Shown one piece after another: positions 4,869-16,530 of a DNA stretch of 64,000 nucleotides. How positions within the stretch are numbered: the stretch's first letter is position 1; each line of letters begins with the position of its first letter. A program made the translations under genes and the position numbers. Origin of the DNA: Parvibaculum lavamentivorans DS-1 (GTDB lineage Bacteria > Pseudomonadota > Alphaproteobacteria > Parvibaculales > Parvibaculaceae); NCBI RefSeq assembly GCF_000017565.1, contig NC_009719.1, positions 3,145,001 through 3,209,000 on the forward strand, in the 5' to 3' direction. Under the pieces are notes generated by a model. That model did not search any database. It was not told where the DNA came from and saw only the letters and a list, made by a program, of their open reading frames with translations.

Positions 4869-5288
4869 CTACCAGTTGCCGATGTTTTCCATCGAAGCCC
4901 AGGGCTCCTTCGGCGGCAGGGGCGTGCCGGCCTGCAGCAGCTCAATCGAGATATTGTCCGGCGAGCGGACGAAGGCCATGCGGCCATCGCGCGGGGGCCG
5001 GTTGATGGTGACGCCCTTCTTCAGCAGGCGGTCGCAGGTTTCGTAGATGTCGTCGACCTCATAGGCGAGGTGGCCGAAATTGCGGCCTTCGCCAAGCGTC
5101 TCCGGATCCCAGTTCCAGGTGAGTTCGACCTGCGCTTCCTTCTGGCCGGGGGCGGCGAGGAAAACGAGGCTGAAGCGGCCCGCTTCGATGTCGAAGCGGC
5201 CGAGATTTTCGAGACCGAGCTTGTCGCAATAAAAATCGAGCGACTTGTCGAGATCGCTGACGCGCACCATGGTGTGGAGATATTTCAT
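4869..5288 (-). CDS. gloA: Lactoylglutathione lyase (glyoxalase I), VOC family
   Basis: 139 residues, a single-module glyoxalase I. It isomerises the hemithioacetal of methylglyoxal and glutathione to S-lactoylglutathione. The four metal ligands known from E. coli GloA have counterparts: H5 (MKYLH), E55 (VELTWN), H73 (NFGHLAYEV) and E116 (NISIELLQ). The segment LDKSLDFYCDKLG is typical of the family. Length matches bacterial GloA. It is divergent from the sirtuin gene, whose preferred start is 70 bp away, so both promoters must lie in that short gap. Confidence 0.93.
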   Translation of the reverse strand: MKYLHTMVRVSDLDKSLDFYCDKLGLENLGRFDIEAGRFSLVFLAAPGQKEAQVELTWNWDPETLGEGRNFGHLAYEVDDIYETCDRLLKKGVTINRPPRDGRMAFVRSPDNISIELLQAGTPLPPKEPWASMENIGNW

Positions 5289-5358
5289 CCTGGGTCCTTG
5301 ATCGATGCCGGAATTGCCGCATGATTCAACATCACGGGGGCAAGGTCAAAGGTTGCGC

Positions 5359-6099
5359 ATGTCGAAAGAGCTGAAACGGGCCATAGAGGACGCTTATCGC
5401 GTGGTGATATTCACCGGGGCGGGGATCAGCACGGAATCGGGCATTCCCGATTTTCGCAGTCCGGGCGGCTTGTGGACGAAGATGGCGCCCATCGACTTTC
5501 AGGATTTTCTACGCTCGCCGGAAATTCGCGCGGAAGCATGGCGGCGGAAATTCGAGATCGACAAGACGATCGTGAGCGCCGAGCCGAACAAGGGGCACAT
5601 GGCGATCGCGAAGCTGATCGACGAGGGCAAGGCGAGCCATGTCATCACGCAGAACATCGACAATCTGCATCAGAACTCCGGCATACCGGCGGAGAAGGTG
5701 ATCGAGCTGCATGGCAACGGCACTTATGCGAAGTGCCTCGACTGCGGCGAGCGGCACGAGCTTTCATGGGTGCGCGAGATTTATGACGCATCGGGCGCGG
5801 CGCCGGATTGCCGGAGCTGCGGGGGCATCGTGAAATCGGCGACGATCTCCTTCGGGCAGGCGATGCCGGAAGAGCAAATGAACAGGGCGCATGAGGCGAC
5901 GCTCGGCTGCGATCTCTTCATCGCCATCGGCTCTTCGCTGCAGGTCTATCCGGCGGCGGGATTTCCGGTTCTCGCGAAACGGAACGGCGCGATGCTGGCG
6001 ATCCTCAACCGCGAGCCGACTGAACTCGACCAGATTGCCGATCTCGTGATCCATGACGAAATCGGGCCGACGCTGGCGCCGATTGCGATGTTGAATTGA
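5359..6099 (+). CDS. cobB: NAD-dependent protein deacylase, SIR2 (sirtuin) family
   Basis: 246 residues from the ATG at 5359, preferred over the ATG at 5305 because AAGG-type purines precede it and homologues begin near this point. Sirtuins remove acyl groups from lysines using NAD+. Visible motifs are GAGIS (20-24) for NAD binding, IPDFRSPGGLW (29-39), TQNIDNLH (97-104), catalytic H118 in ELHGN, and a Zn finger with C126, C129, C151 and C154. GSSLQVYPAAGFP completes the NAD pocket. It converges with the halohydrin dehalogenase-like gene (stops 10 bp apart). CobB is used as the general bacterial sirtuin name. Confidence 0.92.
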   Translation: MSKELKRAIEDAYRVVIFTGAGISTESGIPDFRSPGGLWTKMAPIDFQDFLRSPEIRAEAWRRKFEIDKTIVSAEPNKGHMAIAKLIDEGKASHVITQNIDNLHQNSGIPAEKVIELHGNGTYAKCLDCGERHELSWVREIYDASGAAPDCRSCGGIVKSATISFGQAMPEEQMNRAHEATLGCDLFIAIGSSLQVYPAAGFPVLAKRNGAMLAILNREPTELDQIADLVIHDEIGPTLAPIAMLN

Positions 6100-6109
6100 C
6101 GGGGTTGAA

Positions 6110-6844
6110 CTAGCGCGCGGTGGCCCAACCGCCGGCGACCGGGATCAACTGGCCGGTGATGAAATCCGATGTCGGGCCGGCGAGGAAGGCGACGATGGCG
6201 GCGGCTTCTTCCGGCTTGCCGAGGCGGCCGAGCGGAATGTTCGACAATATCTTGTCGCGCGATTTCGGATTTTCAAGGAGCGATGCGGGGAAGTAGTCCG
6301 GGCTTTCGATGAAGTTGAAGGCGAGGGCGTTCACCTGGATGTTGGAGGGGGCGAGTTCCTTTGCCAGCGTCAGCGCGAGCGAATTGGCGGCGCCGCGCGC
6401 GGCGGCATAGATGCTGTAGTTGGGGATGCCGTTCAGCGGTGCGGCGGAGGAGAGGAAGAGAATTTTTCCCGCGCGCTGCTTTTTCATCTGCGGTACGGCG
6501 GCGCGCGTCATGGCGAAGGATTTGAAGACCAGCGCCTCGAAGGTTTCGTGGAGGTCCTTGTCGGTTGCTTCGTCCACGGGACCGCGCATAGCGGGCCAGG
6601 CATCATTGTTGATGAGGACGTCGAGGCGGCCCTCGGCTTCCAGCACCGCGGCGACGGCTTCCCGCGGGTCTTGCGCGGAGAGTGCTTTCACGCCGGGTAT
6701 CTTCGTCTCGAAGGCGGCGCGGGCGGCGGCATCCGCGAAGCTTGCATCGACGCCATAGATGCGGGCGCCTTCGGCGAGGAGGGCGCGGGCGGACGGGCCG
6801 CCGACGAAATGCGCTATGTCGGTGATGAGAATGCTGCGCGCCAT
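6110..6844 (-). CDS. Halohydrin dehalogenase-like SDR-fold enzyme
   Basis: 244 residues from the ATG at 6844; the frame's longer 5' extension has no family similarity. The fold is short-chain dehydrogenase/reductase, but the cofactor and catalytic signatures are altered as in halohydrin dehalogenases. The Gly-rich loop is replaced by T8-X4-F13-X-G15 (TDIAHFVG). The catalytic triad is S133-X12-Y146-X3-R150, with Arg in place of the SDR Lys. Numbering is almost the same as HheC (S132, Y145, R149). Such enzymes, described in Hhe families A-G, convert vicinal haloalcohols to epoxides and open epoxides with anions. NNAG is also altered to NND. The natural substrate is unknown. It converges with the sirtuin gene and is divergent from the GH13 gene. 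Confidence 0.8.
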   Translation of the reverse strand: MARSILITDIAHFVGGPSARALLAEGARIYGVDASFADAAARAAFETKIPGVKALSAQDPREAVAAVLEAEGRLDVLINNDAWPAMRGPVDEATDKDLHETFEALVFKSFAMTRAAVPQMKKQRAGKILFLSSAAPLNGIPNYSIYAAARGAANSLALTLAKELAPSNIQVNALAFNFIESPDYFPASLLENPKSRDKILSNIPLGRLGKPEEAAAIVAFLAGPTSDFITGQLIPVAGGWATAR

Positions 6845-6942: not shown

Positions 6943-8550
6943 GTGGCGGGAGAGAAGAGCGAATGGTGGAAGGGCGCGGTGGTCTATCAGATCTATCCGC
7001 GCAGTTTTCACGATACAAATGGCGACGGCATCGGCGACCTGAAAGGCATCGAGGAAAAGCTCGACCATGTGGCGGGGCTGGGGGCGGACGCGATCTGGCT
7101 GTCGCCGATCTATCCCTCGCCCAATCGCGATTTCGGCTACGACGTTTCCGACTATTGCGCGATTGCGCCCGAGATGGGCTCGATGGCGGATTTCGACCGG
7201 CTGGTCGAGGCGGTGCATGGGCGGGGCATGAAGCTCATTCTCGACCAGGTGCTTGCGCATACATCCGAGCAGCATCAGTGGTTTCAGGAGAGCCAGCTCT
7301 CCGCCGACAACCCGAAATCGGACTGGTATGTCTGGGCGGATGCGAAGGAAGACGGGACGGTGCCGAACAACTGGCTGTCGGCATTCGGCGGTCCGGCCTG
7401 GTCGTGGAATCCGGTCAGGCGGAAGTACTACCATCACAAGTTTCTGAAGAGCCAGCCAAAACTCAACTTCCACAATGAGCAGGTGGTGGATGCTTGCATG
7501 GATGTGCTGCGCTTCTGGCTCGACCGGGGCGTGGACGGGTTCCGGCTCGATGTGGCGAATGCCTATCTGCACGATGCGGCGCTGACCGACAATCCGCCGC
7601 TGCCGATGGACAAGCGCACATTCATGGACTGGGCGCATGCACCGCGGCTGCAGCAGCATATCCATGACGCGAACATGCCCGAGAACGAATGGGCGATGAA
7701 GCGCGTGCGGAAGGTGATGGACGAGTATGAGGAGCGGCTGGCCTTTGGCGAGTTTTCCGAGCGGCCCGAGATGTTCGGGCGTTATGCGGGCGGTGTCGAA
7801 CGGTTGCATACGGGGTATACGTTCGATTTTCTGGAGGACTGGAGTTTCGAGCCGCCGGTGTTCCGCGCCTATTACGAGAAGCTGCTGGCGCCGCTCAGCG
7901 ATCTTTTTCCCTGCGTGACGTTTTCGAACCACGACATCGTGCGGCCGGTGACGCGGTGGGGCGGCGGACAAGGCGATGACGGGCTTGCGAAGCTGGCGCT
8001 GACGCTGCTCGTGGCGTTGCGCGGCACGGTGCTGATGTTCCAGGGCGAGGAGCTGGGACTGCCGGAGGTGGACCTTGAGCGGAAATACATCAAGGACCCG
8101 GTGGGCGATCTCTATTTCCCGTGGGTGAAGGGGCGTGACGGCTGCCGGACGCCGATGCCGTGGGAGAGCGGCGGGGCGGAGGCAGGCTTCACCATCGGTA
8201 CGCCCTGGCTGCCGATACCGGATTATCACCGAATGCGGGCGGTGGATGTTCAGCAGGCGGATGAAGGCTCCGTACTGGCGCATGCGAAGAAGGTTATCGC
8301 GCTGAGGAAGGCGCATCCGGCGCTGAAGACGGGCGCGATGTCGTGTCTCGACGCTGAGGGGAAGGTGCTCGCCTTCACACGCGAGGGAGAAGGCGAGCGG
8401 CTGCTCTGCGTGTTCAATCTCGGCAAGGAGGCGGCGAGCTTCGATTTGCCGGAGAGTGCGGGCGCGGCGGTGTTCGAGGTTGGGGGCGTGACACGGGATG
8501 CTGCGGCGCTGGCGCTTCAGCCGAGGAGCGGGGCGATCTTCAAGGTTTGA
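6943..8550 (+). CDS. Alpha-glucosidase, glycoside hydrolase family 13
   Basis: 535 residues from a GTG at 6943, preferred over the in-frame GTG at 6901 because AGGAAG lies at suitable distance and homologues start close to WWKGAVVYQIYPRSF. The GH13 regions are all present: YPRSFHDTNGDGIGDLKGI at the N-terminus, nucleophile D203 (GFRLDVAN), acid/base E270 (AFGEFSE) and D331 (FSNHDI). The protein resembles oligo-1,6-glucosidase/alpha-glucosidases hydrolysing terminal alpha-glucosyl units. There is no signal peptide, so it is cytoplasmic. No sugar transporter is adjacent, so the physiological substrate (maltose, sucrose or trehalose-type) cannot be read from context. Confidence 0.88.
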   Translation: MAGEKSEWWKGAVVYQIYPRSFHDTNGDGIGDLKGIEEKLDHVAGLGADAIWLSPIYPSPNRDFGYDVSDYCAIAPEMGSMADFDRLVEAVHGRGMKLILDQVLAHTSEQHQWFQESQLSADNPKSDWYVWADAKEDGTVPNNWLSAFGGPAWSWNPVRRKYYHHKFLKSQPKLNFHNEQVVDACMDVLRFWLDRGVDGFRLDVANAYLHDAALTDNPPLPMDKRTFMDWAHAPRLQQHIHDANMPENEWAMKRVRKVMDEYEERLAFGEFSERPEMFGRYAGGVERLHTGYTFDFLEDWSFEPPVFRAYYEKLLAPLSDLFPCVTFSNHDIVRPVTRWGGGQGDDGLAKLALTLLVALRGTVLMFQGEELGLPEVDLERKYIKDPVGDLYFPWVKGRDGCRTPMPWESGGAEAGFTIGTPWLPIPDYHRMRAVDVQQADEGSVLAHAKKVIALRKAHPALKTGAMSCLDAEGKVLAFTREGEGERLLCVFNLGKEAASFDLPESAGAAVFEVGGVTRDAAALALQPRSGAIFKV

Positions 8551-8552
8551 GA

Positions 8553-10172
8553 CTAATCGCTGCGCCGGGATTCCATCTCGGCTTGCGTGTCGATGTCGGT
8601 AAGCGGCGCGTCATCCGGCATGGGGACTTCGCAGAGGGCGTCGGGGTTTTCGCCGATGAGGTGTTTGGCGCCGGTGTCGCCCTTGGTTTCCATCATGGCC
8701 TCGAACCATTCGCGGCCCCAGAGGACGGGGTTGCCGCGTTTGCTGGCGACGGTGGGCACGCAGATGGTGCGGTTTTCTTCCGGGTCGAAGGCGGCGATGA
8801 GGCGGTCGAGGTGGGACGCCTTGATGTCCGGCATGTCGCCGAGGCAGACGAGGGCGCCATCCGCGTCGTCGGGCAGTGCGGCGAGGCCGGTGCGGAGCGA
8901 GGTCGAGAGGCCGTCCGCATAGTCCGGGTTGTGAACGAAGGTGACGTCCTGGCCGGCGAGGGCGGCGCGGACTTCATTGTCTGCATTGCCGGTGACGACG
9001 ATGACCGGGCGGGCGGCACTGGCAAGGGCGGCTTCCACGATATGGGCGATCATGGGCCTGCCGCCGAGCGGCATCAGCAGCTTGTTCTGCGGTCCGGCCA
9101 TGCGCGTCGAGCGACCGGCCGCGAGGATGATGGCGGCGATACGGGGCTGCGACCCGGCGGCGGGGGCGCGGCCCTCGCGGGGCTGGGGCCGCGAGGGGAT
9201 TTCCTTCAGGAGGCCGCCCAGGCCCATTCCCATGATGTCTTTCGGCGTGACTTCCAGTCCCGCGATGAGGCGGGCAAGCACCCAGTCGCAGCCGTTGAGC
9301 TTTGGCGAGCGGGCGCAGCCGGGGAGGCCGATGACGGGCGTCTCGCCGAGGCGGGCGAGGAGCATGAGATTGCCGGGGTCGACCGGCATGCCGAAATGGA
9401 GGATGTCGCCGCCTGCCATGACGATGCCCGCGGGTACGACATCGCGCCGGTCGACCGTGGCGGAGGCGCCGAAGACGAGGATGGGGGAGAGGCCGTCCGC
9501 CGCAAGCGCGCGCACGGCATCCGCAATGGCGCCGGTGTCGTGGGGCGCGCGGATTTCGCGGGCGATTGTGCTTCCCATGGTGGCGAGGCGGGCGTCGAGG
9601 ACGGCGCGGCTTTTCGTGAGAACGCTTTCCTTCGTTCCGGGGAGTTGGGTGGCGACGAGGCCGATGCGGTGCGGCTCGAAGCGGCTGAGCGCAATGGGAG
9701 CGGGGCCGGAGCGGGCGATATCGAGCGCCTTGTCGAGTTCGGCGCGGGGAACGGCGAAGGGGATCACCTTCACGGTGGCGAGCATCTGCCGGTCCGCCAC
9801 GGTCTCGAAGGGGGCGAGGGTGGCGACGGTGAGCGCCTCGCCGATGGCGTTGATGGCGTGGATGCGGGCGGCGTCGATTTCGAGGACGCCGTTTCCCGTG
9901 GCGTAGAGATTGGCGCGGCCGGTGAAGGGCGCGGCGACGCGGATGGACTTGCCGGCGAGCGCATCCGCCAGCGCGGCGGCGGCTTCGTCCTCGGGGACGT
10001 CCGTGACTTCGAGGCGGGCGGCGACGACGCTCGTGACGCCAGCCTCCTTCAGGGCGGCAATGTCCGCGCGGCTGAGGATGCGGCCTTTCTTGAAGGTTCC
10101 GGTTCCGGCTTTTTGCGAATGGGCGAGGATCGCGCCCTCGGCATCGTCGGGCGGCATGTGGCCGAAGATCAT
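8553..10172 (-). CDS. Fusion of a molybdopterin-binding (MoeA-like) domain and a MobA/MocA-like nucleotidyltransferase
   Basis: 539 residues. The N-terminal two thirds (to about 340) resemble the molybdopterin-binding fold, with LSRADIAALKEAGV and DGLSPILVFGASATVDRRDVVPAG. The C-terminal part (about 345-535) is a nucleotidyltransferase with IAAIILAAGRSTRMAG and CLGDMPDI, as in MocA, which makes molybdopterin cytosine dinucleotide for xanthine-oxidase-family enzymes. Being last in the cox operon, it probably supplies the Mo-MCD cofactor for CoxL. Its ATG overlaps the stop of the XdhC C-terminal gene (10169-10172), so translation is coupled. CTP versus GTP specificity is inferred from context. 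Confidence 0.82.
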   Translation of the reverse strand: MIFGHMPPDDAEGAILAHSQKAGTGTFKKGRILSRADIAALKEAGVTSVVAARLEVTDVPEDEAAAALADALAGKSIRVAAPFTGRANLYATGNGVLEIDAARIHAINAIGEALTVATLAPFETVADRQMLATVKVIPFAVPRAELDKALDIARSGPAPIALSRFEPHRIGLVATQLPGTKESVLTKSRAVLDARLATMGSTIAREIRAPHDTGAIADAVRALAADGLSPILVFGASATVDRRDVVPAGIVMAGGDILHFGMPVDPGNLMLLARLGETPVIGLPGCARSPKLNGCDWVLARLIAGLEVTPKDIMGMGLGGLLKEIPSRPQPREGRAPAAGSQPRIAAIILAAGRSTRMAGPQNKLLMPLGGRPMIAHIVEAALASAARPVIVVTGNADNEVRAALAGQDVTFVHNPDYADGLSTSLRTGLAALPDDADGALVCLGDMPDIKASHLDRLIAAFDPEENRTICVPTVASKRGNPVLWGREWFEAMMETKGDTGAKHLIGENPDALCEVPMPDDAPLTDIDTQAEMESRRSD

Positions 10173-10846
10173 TTGCGGAGCGTCTCCGTTATCTGGGCCA
10201 TGATGGAGATGGCGATTTCGGCGGGGCTTTTCGCGCCGATGGCGAGGCCGACGGGGCCGTGGATGCGGGCGATTTCCTCTTCCGTGAAGCCTGCTTCCGT
10301 GAGGCGGGCGACGCGGGCGGCATGGGTCTTCTTCGAGCCCAGCGCGCCGATATAGAAGGCGGGGCTGCGGAGAGCGGCGACCAGCGCGGGATCGTCGAGC
10401 TTCGGATCATGGGTGAGGGTGACGATGGCGGTGCGCGCATCCGGCGCGAGGGCGGCCATAGCTTCGTCGGGCCAGTCGGTGACCAGCGCCATGTCCGGGA
10501 AGCGGGCTTCGGAAGCGAAGGAGGTGCGGGGATCGACCACCGTCACGTCGTAGCCGGCGAGCGCGCCCATGCGGGCCAGCGGCTGGGCGATATGGACGGC
10601 GCCGACGAGGATGAGGCGCAGCGGCGGGTTGAAGGGGTTGAGGAACCAGTCGCCGTCCGGGCCGGCAACAACCGCCGCCTTGTCGCTCGACTGCACTTCA
10701 GAAACAGCTTTAATTAACCAAGTTTCTTCTGATTTATCAGATGGATAAACAAGTTTCTGGATTCCATCCGTTAACCTTGTCGCGAGCGTTACGGCGCGCT
10801 TTTCGAGGCGGTCGCGGACGAGCTGTTCGAGAACTTCTCTTTCCAT
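10169..10846 (-). CDS. XdhC/CoxI family protein, C-terminal (Rossmann) half
   Basis: 225 residues from the ATG at 10846 (MEREVLEQLV). The C-terminal half is the XdhC Rossmann domain: LRLILVGAVHIAQPLARMGALAGYDVTVVDPR, then TLTHDPKLDDPAL and YIGALGSKKTHAAR. XdhC-family proteins bind Mo cofactor, help its sulfuration and insert it into xanthine-oxidase-family enzymes. The start lies 1 bp after the TGA of the 111-residue XdhC N-terminal gene, so the usual single XdhC chain is encoded as two cistrons here. The first 80 or so residues (ATRLTDGIQKLV...) are less conserved. Confidence 0.85.
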   Translation of the reverse strand: MEREVLEQLVRDRLEKRAVTLATRLTDGIQKLVYPSDKSEETWLIKAVSEVQSSDKAAVVAGPDGDWFLNPFNPPLRLILVGAVHIAQPLARMGALAGYDVTVVDPRTSFASEARFPDMALVTDWPDEAMAALAPDARTAIVTLTHDPKLDDPALVAALRSPAFYIGALGSKKTHAARVARLTEAGFTEEEIARIHGPVGLAIGAKSPAEIAISIMAQITETLRK

Positions 10847-10847
10847 T

Positions 10848-11183
10848 TCAGCCCGATACCGGTTCGACCATGACGCGGATGCGGCCGCCGCAGGCGAGGC
10901 CGACTTCCCAGGCCATGGCGTCGCTGACGCCATATTCGACGATTTCGGGCTTGCCGGTGGCGAGCGCGTCGAGGGCGCGGGTGACGACATCGCCTTCGAT
11001 GCAGCCGCCGGAGACGGAGCCGACGAATTCGCTGTCGTCGCGGATGGCGAGCTGGCTGCCGACCGGACGCGGGGCCGAACCCCAGGTTTCAATGACAGTG
11101 GCGAGGGCGACCTTGTGGCCCTCCGCGCGCCAGCGGGCGGCCTCCTCCAGCACCTGATCGTGGTTTGCGGCGGGTTCGGTCAT
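10848..11183 (-). CDS. XdhC/CoxI family protein, N-terminal domain as a separate chain
   Basis: 111 residues carrying only the N-terminal XdhC domain: GHKVALATVIETWGSAPRPVGSQLAI, followed by GSVSGGCIEGDVV, the Cys-bearing motif known to bind Mo cofactor, and VGLACGGRIRVMVEPV. It overlaps the end of coxE by 4 bp and is followed after 1 bp by the C-terminal half. The arrangement suggests a two-subunit CoxI/XdhC. The intact reading frames and precise spacing argue against a frameshifted pseudogene. Confidence 0.87.
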   Translation of the reverse strand: MTEPAANHDQVLEEAARWRAEGHKVALATVIETWGSAPRPVGSQLAIRDDSEFVGSVSGGCIEGDVVTRALDALATGKPEIVEYGVSDAMAWEVGLACGGRIRVMVEPVSG

Positions 11184-12391
11184 GCGGCTTCCTTCCTTCC
11201 CGGCCTTTCCGGCTTCCTGCCGATATGGGCATCGGAGAGGGCTTCGACCAGAGAGGCAAGCGAGGCGAGATTATGGACCGGGCGGAACTCGTCCACATGG
11301 GGGAGGAGCGCGCGGATGCCGAGGGATTTCGGCTCGAAACGCTCATAGCGCAGAAGCGGGTTCAGCCAGATGAGGCGGCGGGCCTGGCGGTGGAGGCGGG
11401 CGATTTCCGGGCCGACGCCTTCGCCGGCATCCCGATCCAGACCGTCAGTCACGAGGAGGACCGTGGCGCCCTGACCGAGAACACGGCGGGCCCAATCGAC
11501 ATTGAAGCGGTGGAGCGTCTCGCCTATGCGTGTGCCGCCATCCCAATCCTCGACACGGGCGGCGACGCGGGCCAGCGCCTCGTCTATGTCGCGGTGTTTC
11601 AGCTCCCGGGTGACATGGGTGAGGCGGGTGCCGAAGAGGAAGATGTGGACCCGGTCGCGGCCGTTCGCCAGCACATGCAGGAAGTGGAGGAAGACGCGCG
11701 CGTAGACCGACATGGAGCCGGAGATGTCGCAGAGGATGACGAGCGGCGGGCGGCGGCGGCGAAAGGTACGGCGTTTCAGAGGAATGACGCCGCCAGAGCG
11801 GAGCGTCGCACGCAAGGTCGCTCGCATGTCGATCATCTGGCCGCGCGAGGAGGGGCGCGTGCGGCGGGTGCGGATATCGTCATGCGAGAGGTGGAGACGG
11901 GAGATCGCGGCTTTGGCTTCCGCCAGTTCCGCGGCGGACATCTGCTCGAAATCCTTTGTCCGGAGCAACTCCTCGGCCGAGAAGGTTTCACTGCGGTCGA
12001 TTTCGATATCCGGCTCTTCCGGCGCCTGCGGACGGGTTTCGCCGAACAGGGCCTCGGCGAGGCGGCGGCTTTTTTCTTCGTCCGTTGCACCTGGCGGCGT
12101 TTCGATCTCGGGAAGCATCAGCGACATCATCTTGTCGAGGAGCTTCGGGTCGCGCCAGAAGACGTGAAACGCCTGATCGAAAATCTCGCGTTCCTCGTGG
12201 CGCTTCACGAGTGTCGCATGGAGGGTCCAGTAGAAGTCGGCGCGGGGGCCGATGCCTGCCGCCTCGACGGCTTCGACAGCATCGAGCACCTGGCGCGGAC
12301 CGACGCGGAGACCGGCGCGGCGCAGCACGCGGGCGAAATGGACGATGTTTTCCGCCAGGCGGCCATGATTCTCCGCAGGGCGAGCGGGCAT
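11180..12391 (-). CDS. coxE: CoxE-like protein with von Willebrand factor A domain
   Basis: 403 residues. The VWA part (about 215-390) contains the metal-ion-dependent adhesion motif DISGSMS and later TDGLDRD. The N-terminal region (ENIVHFARVLRRAGLRVGPRQVLDAVEAV) is the conserved CoxE/DUF58-like front. In the Oligotropha carboxidovorans cox system, CoxD (AAA+) and CoxE work together in assembling the [CuSMoO2] centre of CO dehydrogenase; here they would mature the related Mo enzyme. The start overlaps the coxD stop by 1 nt, and the 3' end overlaps the XdhC-N gene by 4 bp. Confidence 0.88.
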   Translation of the reverse strand: MPARPAENHGRLAENIVHFARVLRRAGLRVGPRQVLDAVEAVEAAGIGPRADFYWTLHATLVKRHEEREIFDQAFHVFWRDPKLLDKMMSLMLPEIETPPGATDEEKSRRLAEALFGETRPQAPEEPDIEIDRSETFSAEELLRTKDFEQMSAAELAEAKAAISRLHLSHDDIRTRRTRPSSRGQMIDMRATLRATLRSGGVIPLKRRTFRRRRPPLVILCDISGSMSVYARVFLHFLHVLANGRDRVHIFLFGTRLTHVTRELKHRDIDEALARVAARVEDWDGGTRIGETLHRFNVDWARRVLGQGATVLLVTDGLDRDAGEGVGPEIARLHRQARRLIWLNPLLRYERFEPKSLGIRALLPHVDEFRPVHNLASLASLVEALSDAHIGRKPERPGRKEAA

Positions 12392-13302
12392 CAGTCGGCC
12401 GCCCGCGCGGCCATCCTGATTTCTTCCAGGATGCGGGCAGCCTCGCTGCCGGAAACGCGGGCGATGTCGTCCTGATATTTCAGGAGCGCGCCGAGCGTGT
12501 CGTTGACGGATTGCCGGTCGAGGGCGACGGCGTCGAGCGCGGTCAGCGCCTGCGCCCAGTCGATCGTCTCGGCGATGCCGGGGTTCTTGTAGAGGTCCAT
12601 GGCCCGCAGCTTCTGCACGAAGGCGACAATATCGCGGGAGAGTTTTTCCGGCGTCGCGGGCGCCTTGAGCTTCAGGATCGCCAATTCGCGCTCCGCGTCC
12701 GGGTAGTCGACCCAGTGATAGAGGCAGCGGCGCTTCAGCGCGTCGTGGATTTCGCGCGTGCGGTTCGACGTCACGATGACGATGGGCGGGTGCCCGGCCT
12801 TGATGGTGCCGATCTCGGGAACGCTGACCTGAAAATCGGAGAGGACTTCGAGGAGATAGGCCTCGAAGGGCTCGTCGGTGCGGTCCAGTTCGTCGATCAG
12901 CAGGACGGGCGGGCCTTCGATGGCGGGTTCGAGCGCCTGCAGGATCGGGCGGCGGATGAGGAAGCGTTCGGAGAAGACGTCCTTGCCGAGCTCAGTCCGA
13001 TCCTCGACGCCTTCGGCTTCCGCGAGGCGGATCTCGATCATCTGGGCCTGATAATTCCATTCATAGACGGCGGCGCCGGTGTCGAGGCCCTCATAGCATT
13101 GCAGGCGAATGAGGCGGCGGCCGAGCGCATCCGCCAGTACCTTGGCGATCTCCGTCTTGCCGACGCCGGCTTCTCCCTCAAGCAGGAGCGGGCGGCCCAT
13201 TTTGAGCGCGAGGAAGATTACGGTCGCGAGTGAACGGTCGGCGACGTAATTGCCACGCGCGAGAAGGTCGACGGTTTCGTCGATGCTGGAAGGTATCGTC
13301 AT
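12391..13302 (-). CDS. coxD: CoxD-like MoxR-family AAA+ ATPase
   Basis: 303 residues with Walker A GEAGVGKTE, Walker B LLIDELDR, sensor-1 IVTSNRTREI and a lid with RRCLYHWVDYPD. MoxR ATPases pair with VWA proteins as metalloenzyme chaperones. With CoxE directly downstream and coxM upstream, it fits maturation of the Mo hydroxylase. The gene lies 37 bp after coxM on the same strand. Confidence 0.9.
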   Translation of the reverse strand: MTIPSSIDETVDLLARGNYVADRSLATVIFLALKMGRPLLLEGEAGVGKTEIAKVLADALGRRLIRLQCYEGLDTGAAVYEWNYQAQMIEIRLAEAEGVEDRTELGKDVFSERFLIRRPILQALEPAIEGPPVLLIDELDRTDEPFEAYLLEVLSDFQVSVPEIGTIKAGHPPIVIVTSNRTREIHDALKRRCLYHWVDYPDAERELAILKLKAPATPEKLSRDIVAFVQKLRAMDLYKNPGIAETIDWAQALTALDAVALDRQSVNDTLGALLKYQDDIARVSGSEAARILEEIRMAARAAD

Positions 13303-13339
13303 AAGCTCAATCTATGCGGTAGCGCCCGCAAGCGCAAAG

Positions 13340-14137
13340 TCAGCCCGCCGCCGCGACGGCGCGCTTTGCCATGACGGTCACGAGATGGGCGCGGTATTCG
13401 GCGCTGCCATGCAGGTCGGCGTTCATGCCTTTTGCCGGGAGCTTGATGTTCGCGACCGCATCGGGCGACCAGTTCTTTGTCAGCGCCTCCTCCATCTCCT
13501 TCACGCGGAAGACGCCATTCTGGCCGGCGCCGGTGACGGCGACGCGGACGCCCCATGGGCCCTTCGAGACGAAGACGCCGACCATGGCATAGCGGGAGGC
13601 GGGATTGCGGAATTTCATGTAGGCGGCTTTTTCCGGATGCGGGAAGGTGACTTCCTTGATGATCTCACCGTCCTGCAATGCCGTTTCGAACATGCCTTTG
13701 AAGAATTCATCGGCTTCGATGAGGCGCTTGGTGGTGTGGATCTTGGCATCGAGCGCGAGACAGGCGGCGGGGTAGTCGGCGGCGGGATCATTGTTCGCCA
13801 GAGAGCCGCCCAGCGTTCCCATATGACGGACGGCGGGGTCGCCTATGCCGCCGGCGAGGGCGGCGAGGGCCGGGTTGTGTTTCTTCACATCGGCGGAGTT
13901 CGCCACGGTCGCGTGCTTCGTCGCGGCGCCGATCATGACAGCGTCGCCTTCCGCACGGATGAAATCGAGTTCCTTCAGGCCGCCGATGTCGATCACGTCG
14001 CTCGGCATGGCGAGACGTTGCTTCAGCGTCGGGATCAGGGTTTGTCCGCCCGCCAGCAGTTTCGGATCGTCGGCCTTCGCGAGCAGGGCTTCAGCGTCGG
14101 CAAGCGATTTCGGGCGTTCGTAGTTGAACTGGTACAT
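13340..14137 (-). CDS. coxM: Mo hydroxylase medium subunit, FAD-binding (CoxM-like)
   Basis: 265 residues, slightly under the roughly 285-290 of O. carboxidovorans CoxM. The two FAD-contact motifs are LLAGGQTLIPTLKQRLAMP (about 30-48) and GTLGGSLANNDPAADYPAA (about 107-125). The subunit passes electrons from the [2Fe-2S] protein to FAD and on to an acceptor such as quinone. It lies 11 bp after coxL on the same strand. Confidence 0.9.
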   Translation of the reverse strand: MYQFNYERPKSLADAEALLAKADDPKLLAGGQTLIPTLKQRLAMPSDVIDIGGLKELDFIRAEGDAVMIGAATKHATVANSADVKKHNPALAALAGGIGDPAVRHMGTLGGSLANNDPAADYPAACLALDAKIHTTKRLIEADEFFKGMFETALQDGEIIKEVTFPHPEKAAYMKFRNPASRYAMVGVFVSKGPWGVRVAVTGAGQNGVFRVKEMEEALTKNWSPDAVANIKLPAKGMNADLHGSAEYRAHLVTVMAKRAVAAAG

Positions 14138-14148
14138 GACGGCTCTCC

Positions 14149-16530
14149 TTATTCGGCGGCGGCGCGCGGGGTGGCGGCCTGGATAGCGGACCAGACACGC
14201 GCGGGCGTTGCCGGCATTTCGATGTCGCGGATGCCGAGCGCATCCGTAATAGCATTCACAATGGCCGGAGGCGAGGCGATGGCGCCCGCTTCGCCGCAGC
14301 CTTTCATGCCCAACGGATTGGACGGAGAGACCGTTTTCGTGAAACCGAGGGTGAAGCTCGGCAGGTCATCCGCGCGGGGCATGCAGTAATCCATGTAGGA
14401 GCCGGTGACGAGCTGGCCGGATTCGGCGTCGTAGATGCCGTGTTCGAGCAACGCCTGGCCGATGCCCTGGGCGATGCCGCCATGAACCTGTCCCTCGACG
14501 ATCATCGGATTGACGATTGTACCGAAGTCGTCCACGGCGACGAATTTTTCGATCCGGGTGATGCCGGTATCGGGATCTATCTCGACCTCGCAGATGTGGC
14601 AGCCGGCGGGGAAGGTGAAATTTGTGGGATCGTAAAAGGCGCCTTCCTTGAGGCCGGGTTCGATGTCGGCGGAGGGGAAGCCATGCGCGGTATAGGCCGA
14701 GAGCGCAAGCTGCGCCCAGGGCAGGGACTTGTCGGTGCCCTGCACGGTGAAGGTGCCGTTCTCGAAGACGATGTCCTCGACCGCAGCTTCCATCAGATGG
14801 GCGGCGATCTTTTTTGCCTTGGTCTCCACCTTGTCGAGCGCCTTCACGATGGCGCTCATGCCGACGGCGCCGGAACGCGAGCCGTAGGTGCCCATGCCGA
14901 ACTGCACCTTGTCGGTGTCGCCATGGACGATCTCCACCTGTTCCATCGGGATGCCGAGGCGTGAGGCGACGAGTTGGGCGAAGGTGGTTTCGTGGCCCTG
15001 GCCGTGGCTGTGCGAGCCGGTGAGGACTTCGACATTGCCGGTCGGGTTCACGCGAACTTCGGCACTTTCCCAGAGACCGACACCCGCGCCGAGTGAGCCG
15101 ACGGCGGCGGAAGGCGCGAGGCCGCAGGCTTCGATATAGGAGGACATGCCTATGCCGCGAAGTTTGCCGCGTCTTGCGGCTTCCGACTTGCGGGCGGGGA
15201 AGCCTGCATAGTCGATCGCCTTCATCGCGGCGTCGAGCGAGGCTTCGTAGTCGCCGGCGTCGTAATTCATGATGACGGGCGTCTGATGCGGGAAAGTCCG
15301 AATGTAGTTGCGGCGGCGGATTTCGGCGGGGTTGATGCCGGTTTCGCGGGCGGCCGTTTCGACCATGCGCTCCACAAGATAGGTCGCTTCCGGGCGGCCT
15401 GCACCGCGATAGGCATCGACGGGTGCTGTGTGGGTGTAGACGCCATCGACTTCGACATAGATGGCCGGGATGTCGTACTGGCCGGAAAGCAGCGTGCCGT
15501 AAAGATAGGTCGGGACGGAAGCCGAGAAGGTCGAGAGGTAGGCGCCGAGATTGGCGATCGTCTTGACGCGAAGGGCGAGGAATTTGCCGTTGTCGTCGAG
15601 CGCCAGTTCCGCGTGGCTCAGATGGTCGCGGCCATGGGCGTCCGACAGGAAGGCTTCGGAGCGGTCGCTTGTCCATTTGATCGGGCGGCCGACTTTTGCC
15701 GCCGCCCAGACGCAGGCGGTTTCCTCCGCATAGATGAAAATCTTGGAGCCGAAGCCGCCGCCGACATCTGGCGCGATGACGCGGAGCTTGTGCTCGGGTG
15801 CGACGCCGACAAAGGCGGAGAGGACGAGACGGGCGACATGCGGGTTCTGGCTTGTGGTGTGGAGCGTGTAGATGCCGGAGCCTTTGTCATATTCGCCGAG
15901 CGCGGCGCGCGGCTCCATCGCGTTCGGGATCAGGCGGTTGTTCTTCAGGTCGAGCTTGACGATCCGCGCGGCTTTCGCGAATGCGGCTTCCGTCTCCGGC
16001 TTGTTGCCAAGCTCCCATTCGAAGCAGGTATTGCGCGGCGCTTCCGGGTGGACCTGCTCTGCGTTGCCGCTCTGGCAGGTGTCGAGCGAAACCGTGGCGG
16101 GGAGCGGTTCGTAGTTGACTTCGATCAATTCGGATGCGGCGCGAGCGTCTGCCAGCGTTTCGGCGACGACCATGGCGACGTGATCGCCGACATAGCGGAC
16201 GGTATCGAGCGCGAGAATGGGATGAGGACCGACTTTCATCGGTGTGCCGTCCTTGGAGCTGACGGTCCAGCCGCAGATCAGGCCGCCAAGCTTGTCGGCG
16301 GCGACATGTTTCCCGGTGAAGATGGCGACGACGCCTGGCGCCTGTTCGGCTTGCGCAGTATCGATGGCGCGGATGCGCGCATGGGCATGTGGCGAGCGAA
16401 GGAAATAGGCCCAGGTTTGACGCGGGCGGCTGATGTCGTCCGTATAATGGCCGTTACCCGTGATGAAGCGGAAATCTTCCTTGCGGCGGACCGGCTGGCC
16501 GATCCCTTCTCCTGAAGCTTGGTCCGACAT
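14149..16530 (-). CDS. Form II CoxL-type molybdenum hydroxylase large subunit
   Basis: 793 residues, the size of CO dehydrogenase-type large subunits. The N-terminal [33 protein letters not shown] and [16 protein letters not shown] segments bind the Mo cofactor, and the base-catalysis Glu lies in [11 protein letters not shown]. The active-site loop at 373-379 reads AYRGAGR, the form II signature; true CO dehydrogenases (form I) have AYxCSFR with the Cu-binding Cys. The substrate is therefore unlikely to be CO and is probably an aldehyde, heterocycle or other small molecule. It sits between coxS and coxM genes. Confidence 0.9.

Follow-up and report, generated by a model that had tools for sequence, protein, structure and literature searches.

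The open reading frame at positions 6110-6844 of the window, by which we mean the whole analysed stretch of 64,000 nucleotides from Parvibaculum lavamentivorans DS-1, encodes a protein that belongs to the halohydrin dehalogenases (HHDHs), as supported by its motifs, its nearest structures and its position in a phylogenetic tree. Since it comes from the same strain and is the only short-chain dehydrogenase (SDR) locus of the genome with both recognition motifs of these enzymes, the gene is almost certainly that of the known halohydrin dehalogenase HheA3 (HHDH-PL) of DS-1. The enzyme is already known and the finding is therefore not new; its pattern of conservation within the family is a modest addition.

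Gene and recognition motifs

The gene is read on the minus strand from an ATG at 6844-6842 to a stop codon at 6112-6110 (Table 1). Over these positions, the plus strand likewise holds one frame free of stops, with a different sequence. A preliminary description of this DNA had placed the gene exactly, without mention of the strand, and had assigned both HHDH motifs to it. According to two papers (PMC4989007, PMC11976700), the motifs by which halohydrin dehalogenases are recognized are T-X4-F/Y-X-G and S-X12-Y-X3-R. Both are indeed present, as T8-D-I-A-H-F13-V-G15 and S133-X12-Y146-A-A-A-R150, and neither of the classical NAD(P)-SDR motifs, T-G-X3-G/A-X-G and S-X10-14-Y-X3-K, occurs in the protein. 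In the alignment S133/Y146/R150 correspond to S132/Y145/R149 of HheC in the numbering of chain 1pwx, the same positions that the preliminary description had named. When the protein's own residues were shuffled 20,000 times, motif 1 appeared in 692 shuffles, motif 2 in 240, and both motifs 100-160 residues apart in two. At that spacing, both motifs were found in one of the 168 open stretches of at least 150 aa in the window. A scan for promoters and terminators gave no site.

Table 1. Coordinates in the window of the gene, its motifs and its conserved neighbours
Feature	Position	Strand	Basis
Halohydrin dehalogenase gene (in all probability HheA3 / HHDH-PL)	6110..6844	-	244 aa; motifs, PDB match, tree, fold, review PMC4989007
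Motif 1, residues 8-15 (TDIAHFVG), replaces Gly-rich NAD(P) motif	6800..6823	-	Sequence and alignment
Motif 2, residues 133-150, with S133, Y146 and R150	6395..6448	-	Sequence
Loop residues 173-183 (ALAFNFIESPD)	6296..6328	-	F176-N177-F178 align with HheC P175-N176-Y177
Sir2 family protein, conserved neighbour, convergent with the HHDH gene	5305..6099	+	Pfam PF02146; synteny
Glyoxalase/VOC family protein, conserved neighbour	4869..5288	-	Pfam PF00903; synteny
GH13 alpha-amylase family protein, conserved neighbour, divergent from the HHDH gene	6943..8550	+	Pfam PF00128; synteny

The DS-1 genome, a single contig of 3,914,745 bp, was searched with the Pfam model adh_short_C2, and the motifs were read in six frames across the 57 SDR loci obtained, each extended by at least about 90 bases on either side (174 open frames of at least 120 aa). 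Both HHDH motifs at a spacing of 100-160 occurred in a single locus, the gene at 6110-6844. The sister model adh_short gave 62 matches: 57 of them coincide with the adh_short_C2 places, to which the motif reading applies, and the other five are weak and partial, at 21-26 bits.

For strain DS-1, the review PMC4989007 describes the halohydrin dehalogenase HheA3 (HHDH-PL) as cloned, characterized and active, citing Wan et al. 2014. It further counts HheA3 among the more thermostable HHDHs, and reports its engineering with a screen of random mutants and its use in the preparative-scale synthesis of ethyl (R)-4-cyano-3-hydroxybutyrate, an atorvastatin precursor. The preliminary description had pointed to an enzyme of this kind from Parvibaculum and had cautioned that the gene may not be new, which the review bears out. 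This review was the sole source found in the open-access literature on a Parvibaculum halohydrin dehalogenase, HheA3 or HHDH-PL; the accessible text of the DS-1T genome paper (PMC3368416) contains no occurrence of 'dehalogen' or 'epoxide'. HheA3 and the protein studied here are linked by strain and uniqueness, and we know of no difference between them.

Relationship to halohydrin dehalogenases and other SDRs

The best match of the protein in the PDB was 6a41, a 'dehalogenase' (E 4e-65); variants of HheC and chains of HheA came next. General SDR models match the protein as well, as they would if it were an ordinary NAD(P)-dependent SDR with drifted motifs, the label that automatic annotation would give it: Pfam adh_short_C2 scored 134 bits (cut-off 27) and NCBIfam PRK07231 142 bits (cut-off 215). 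However, none of the best 25 of 206 matched NCBIfam models reached its curated cut-off, and other residues stand in place of the glycine-rich motif and the lysine, in this gene and its orthologues alike.

The structure of the protein was predicted as a monomer from an alignment in which six of the 18 sequences were general SDRs; this yielded a model with a mean pLDDT of 87 and a pTM of 0.89 that is weak at residues 136-141 and 81-90. In a Foldseek search the closest structure was 6a41 (TM 0.90, 44% identity) and the top 11 rows were all 6a41 or HheC chains; rank 12 was taken by 6qhe, an NAD+-bound alcohol dehydrogenase, just above the HheA chains. The top nine rows of VIA-align were 6a41 (Z 31.7), HheC (30.4-31.1) or HheA (29.1-29.3). 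Since the FabG structure 4nbu, with a Z of 29.1, is level with HheA, the fold of the model alone would separate HHDHs from other SDRs only weakly, and the closeness of FabG is again what an ordinary SDR would show.

The two groups were separated in a phylogenetic tree of 50 rows. These comprised three PDB references, the window protein, 17 homologues, four outside SDRs and 25 of the 56 other genomic SDR loci, chosen as the first 25 in which both classical motifs are present; the references were one HheA, one HheC and 6a41, types B and D-G being absent. A split with a support of 100/100 divides the 21 HHDH-like rows from the 29 NAD(P)-type SDR rows, and the three references join the clade of the window protein (without the more distant relatives L115-L117, see below) at 96/72. 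HheA and HheC, of which one each is present, pair together on long branches; the 'A' in HheA3 is the literature's name for the enzyme (PMC4989007). On the motifs and the tree, which groups the protein with HheA, HheC and 6a41, we reject an ordinary NAD(P)-dependent SDR as an extremely improbable reading. The assignment to the halohydrin dehalogenases made in the preliminary description, for which a phylogeny had been proposed as a check, is thus supported by the two motifs, by the solved structures that come nearest in sequence and in fold, by the tree, and by HheA3 as described in the review.

Among the solved structures, the 'Dehalogenation enzyme' 6a41 is 44% identical to the window protein along its full length and has both motifs and N-N-D at 79-81 in common with it, but has S-N-Y in the loop in place of F-N-F. 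HheA and HheA2 (4z9f, 1zmo) resemble the window protein in motifs, length and fold (Z 29.1-29.3) at 32-33% identity. HheC of Agrobacterium radiobacter AD1 (1pwx) has the Ser-Tyr-Arg triad, motif 1 and the fold (Z 30.7) in common with it; however, identity is 35%, and both Pro175 and Tyr177 of HheC are Phe here. In HheC, the loop with P175-N176-Y177 has a part in the halide pocket. By alignment (the loops of the model being of low confidence), motif 1, Asp81 and Asn177 are common to the window protein, HheA and HheC, and Phe176 takes the place of HheC Pro175. The tree alignment has Ala at position 176 in the P. indicum protein, whereas sequences of the family's other genera retain Pro. HheC also carries a C-terminal extension with Trp249 (PMC4989007), whereas the 244-aa window protein is without such an extension.

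Conservation and gene neighbourhood in the Parvibaculum family

We surveyed 40 genomes of the family, including the window's own, at a match threshold of E <= 1e-40; a search at order level covered the same 40. Matches were obtained in 27 genomes. Orthologues with 57-100% identity occur in 23 of the 40 (own genome included; the copy in G034 is split over two contigs) and span four of the five genera of the family. In G016 only the last 116 residues were matched, and G030, G031 and G035 contain a more distant relative with 37-41% identity. The remaining 13 genomes, some of them complete assemblies (e.g. G002, G013, G023 and G036), gave no match. T8, F13, G15, S133, Y146 and R150 are kept in all homologues with at least 37% identity whose match covers these sites; residue 150 is Lys in all ten general SDR rows of the alignment. 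The median dN/dS according to Nei-Gojobori was 0.11 (range 0.05-0.40, 45 pairs) for ten coding sequences of equal length, i.e., the window gene and its counterparts at nine loci, of which eight belong to MAGs; the others were left out.

Remnants of the gene were found in two Parvibaculum MAGs. One (L022:6001-6348) is without the first 128 residues and the other (L025, about 6000-6222) without most of the middle; in both, the Sir2 and VOC genes follow, and in the former GH13 is missing beside the remnant. Together with the 13 genomes without a match, the two remnants indicate that the gene is dispensable. In sum, it is an old gene under purifying selection that has mostly stayed in place, yet is dispensable in some relatives.

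The distant relatives in G030, G031 and G035 (L115:1492-2226, L116 and L117) form a second HHDH-like branch within the same genus, with both motifs present and Thr-Gly-Gly at 79-81, where the window protein has Asn-Asn-Asp. The PDB chain nearest to the L115 protein is 6a41. By eye, the frames beside the gene in L115 resemble, on the upstream side, a metallo-beta-lactamase-fold hydrolase and, on the downstream side, a VOC protein and an acyl-CoA synthetase. We rejected the idea that L116 and L117 are broken genes, as their apparent internal stops are ordinary terminal stops.

Synteny was determined for 27 loci, of which L021 and L109 seem to be from the same genome; for many, the flank extends to only 1.5 kb. 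GH13 is located 5' of the HHDH gene in 22 loci and Sir2 3' of it in 21; in L014, Sir2 is about 5.6 kb off. Neither was found within the flank, often those 1.5 kb, of L115-L117. In the window, the start codons of the HHDH gene and GH13 are 98 bp apart if GTG 6943 is the start of GH13. The GC3 of the HHDH gene is 0.82, close to that of Sir2 (0.77), VOC (0.83) and coxL (0.78).

These data bear on whether the gene was recently acquired for the degradation of pollutants. The first HHDHs, HheA, HheB and HheC, were obtained from strains that had been enriched on epihalohydrins or haloalcohols (PMC4989007), and the presence of the gene in the family is patchy, as recent acquisition would have it. Nevertheless, orthologues occur in four of five genera and share their position in several of them, with the same neighbours, and GC3 is near that of Sir2, VOC and coxL. 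On synteny and GC3 we reject recent acquisition, which is very improbable. Because 23 of the 40 genomes have an orthologue, mostly with the same neighbours and under purifying selection, the conservation pattern suggests that the gene has long served a native role, rather than having been acquired recently to break down pollutants.

We likewise rejected an operon shared with an epoxide hydrolase: Pfam scans of eight neighbour proteins revealed no such enzyme, and candidates lie elsewhere in the genome, with two EHN-type matches at 1.87 Mb and one limonene-epoxide-hydrolase-type match at 1.25 Mb, compared to 3.15 Mb for the HHDH gene. As a separate observation, positions 8553-16530 of the window hold, on the minus strand, a cluster of MobA-like, XdhC-type, CoxE/CoxD-like and molybdenum hydroxylase genes that resembles those of aerobic CO dehydrogenase or related hydroxylases. 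The XdhC-type part consists of two separate frames, XdhC_CoxI and XdhC_C, which were assigned by Pfam, as was the MobA-like gene; the rest was assigned by eye.

Proposed mechanism and native role

According to the review (PMC4989007), in HHDHs, with HheC as the reference for residue numbers, the Ser binds the substrate hydroxyl, the Tyr takes the proton and the Arg lowers the pKa of the Tyr; the anion is held in a pocket that stands in for the nicotinamide site, and epoxides are opened when the reaction runs in reverse. From the conserved residues and this HheC mechanism, we infer that the window enzyme would interconvert vicinal haloalcohols and epoxides with no need for NAD(P). Ser133 would hold the substrate hydroxyl, and Tyr146, its pKa lowered by Arg150, would accept the proton, upon which the substrate oxygen would displace the neighbouring halide to form the epoxide. 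The halide would exit into a pocket built around motif 1, which in other SDRs is the binding site of the nicotinamide cofactor. The reaction is predicted to be reversible, so that epoxides may be opened with other anions, e.g. azide or cyanide. HHDHs serve in making chiral building blocks.

The enzyme may be an HHDH by descent whose native job is a different one, for instance to let another anion react with an epoxide or a reactive metabolite; the activity on haloalcohols seen in the laboratory would then be secondary. This would be compatible with its identity as HheA3, and we hold it as a tentative possibility. Its occurrence in 23 of the 40 genomes, conserved neighbourhood and median dN/dS of 0.11 speak for an old native role, and the review itself leaves room for other physiological functions (PMC4989007). 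The family conservation fits that remark, without pointing to a substrate. On the other hand, the Sir2, VOC and GH13 neighbours have no evident link to such a job, no partner gene suggests a substrate, and the gene is dispensable, as several of the genomes without a match are complete.

We tentatively propose that the HHDH of the Parvibaculum family is possibly an old, vertically inherited enzyme with a natural, non-pollutant substrate, whose laboratory activity on haloalcohols would only reflect that chemistry; the L115-L117 branch may perform a related but different chemistry. With a chromosomal HHDH gene that often holds its position and has been lost in some members, the family lends itself well to testing the natural role of these enzymes.
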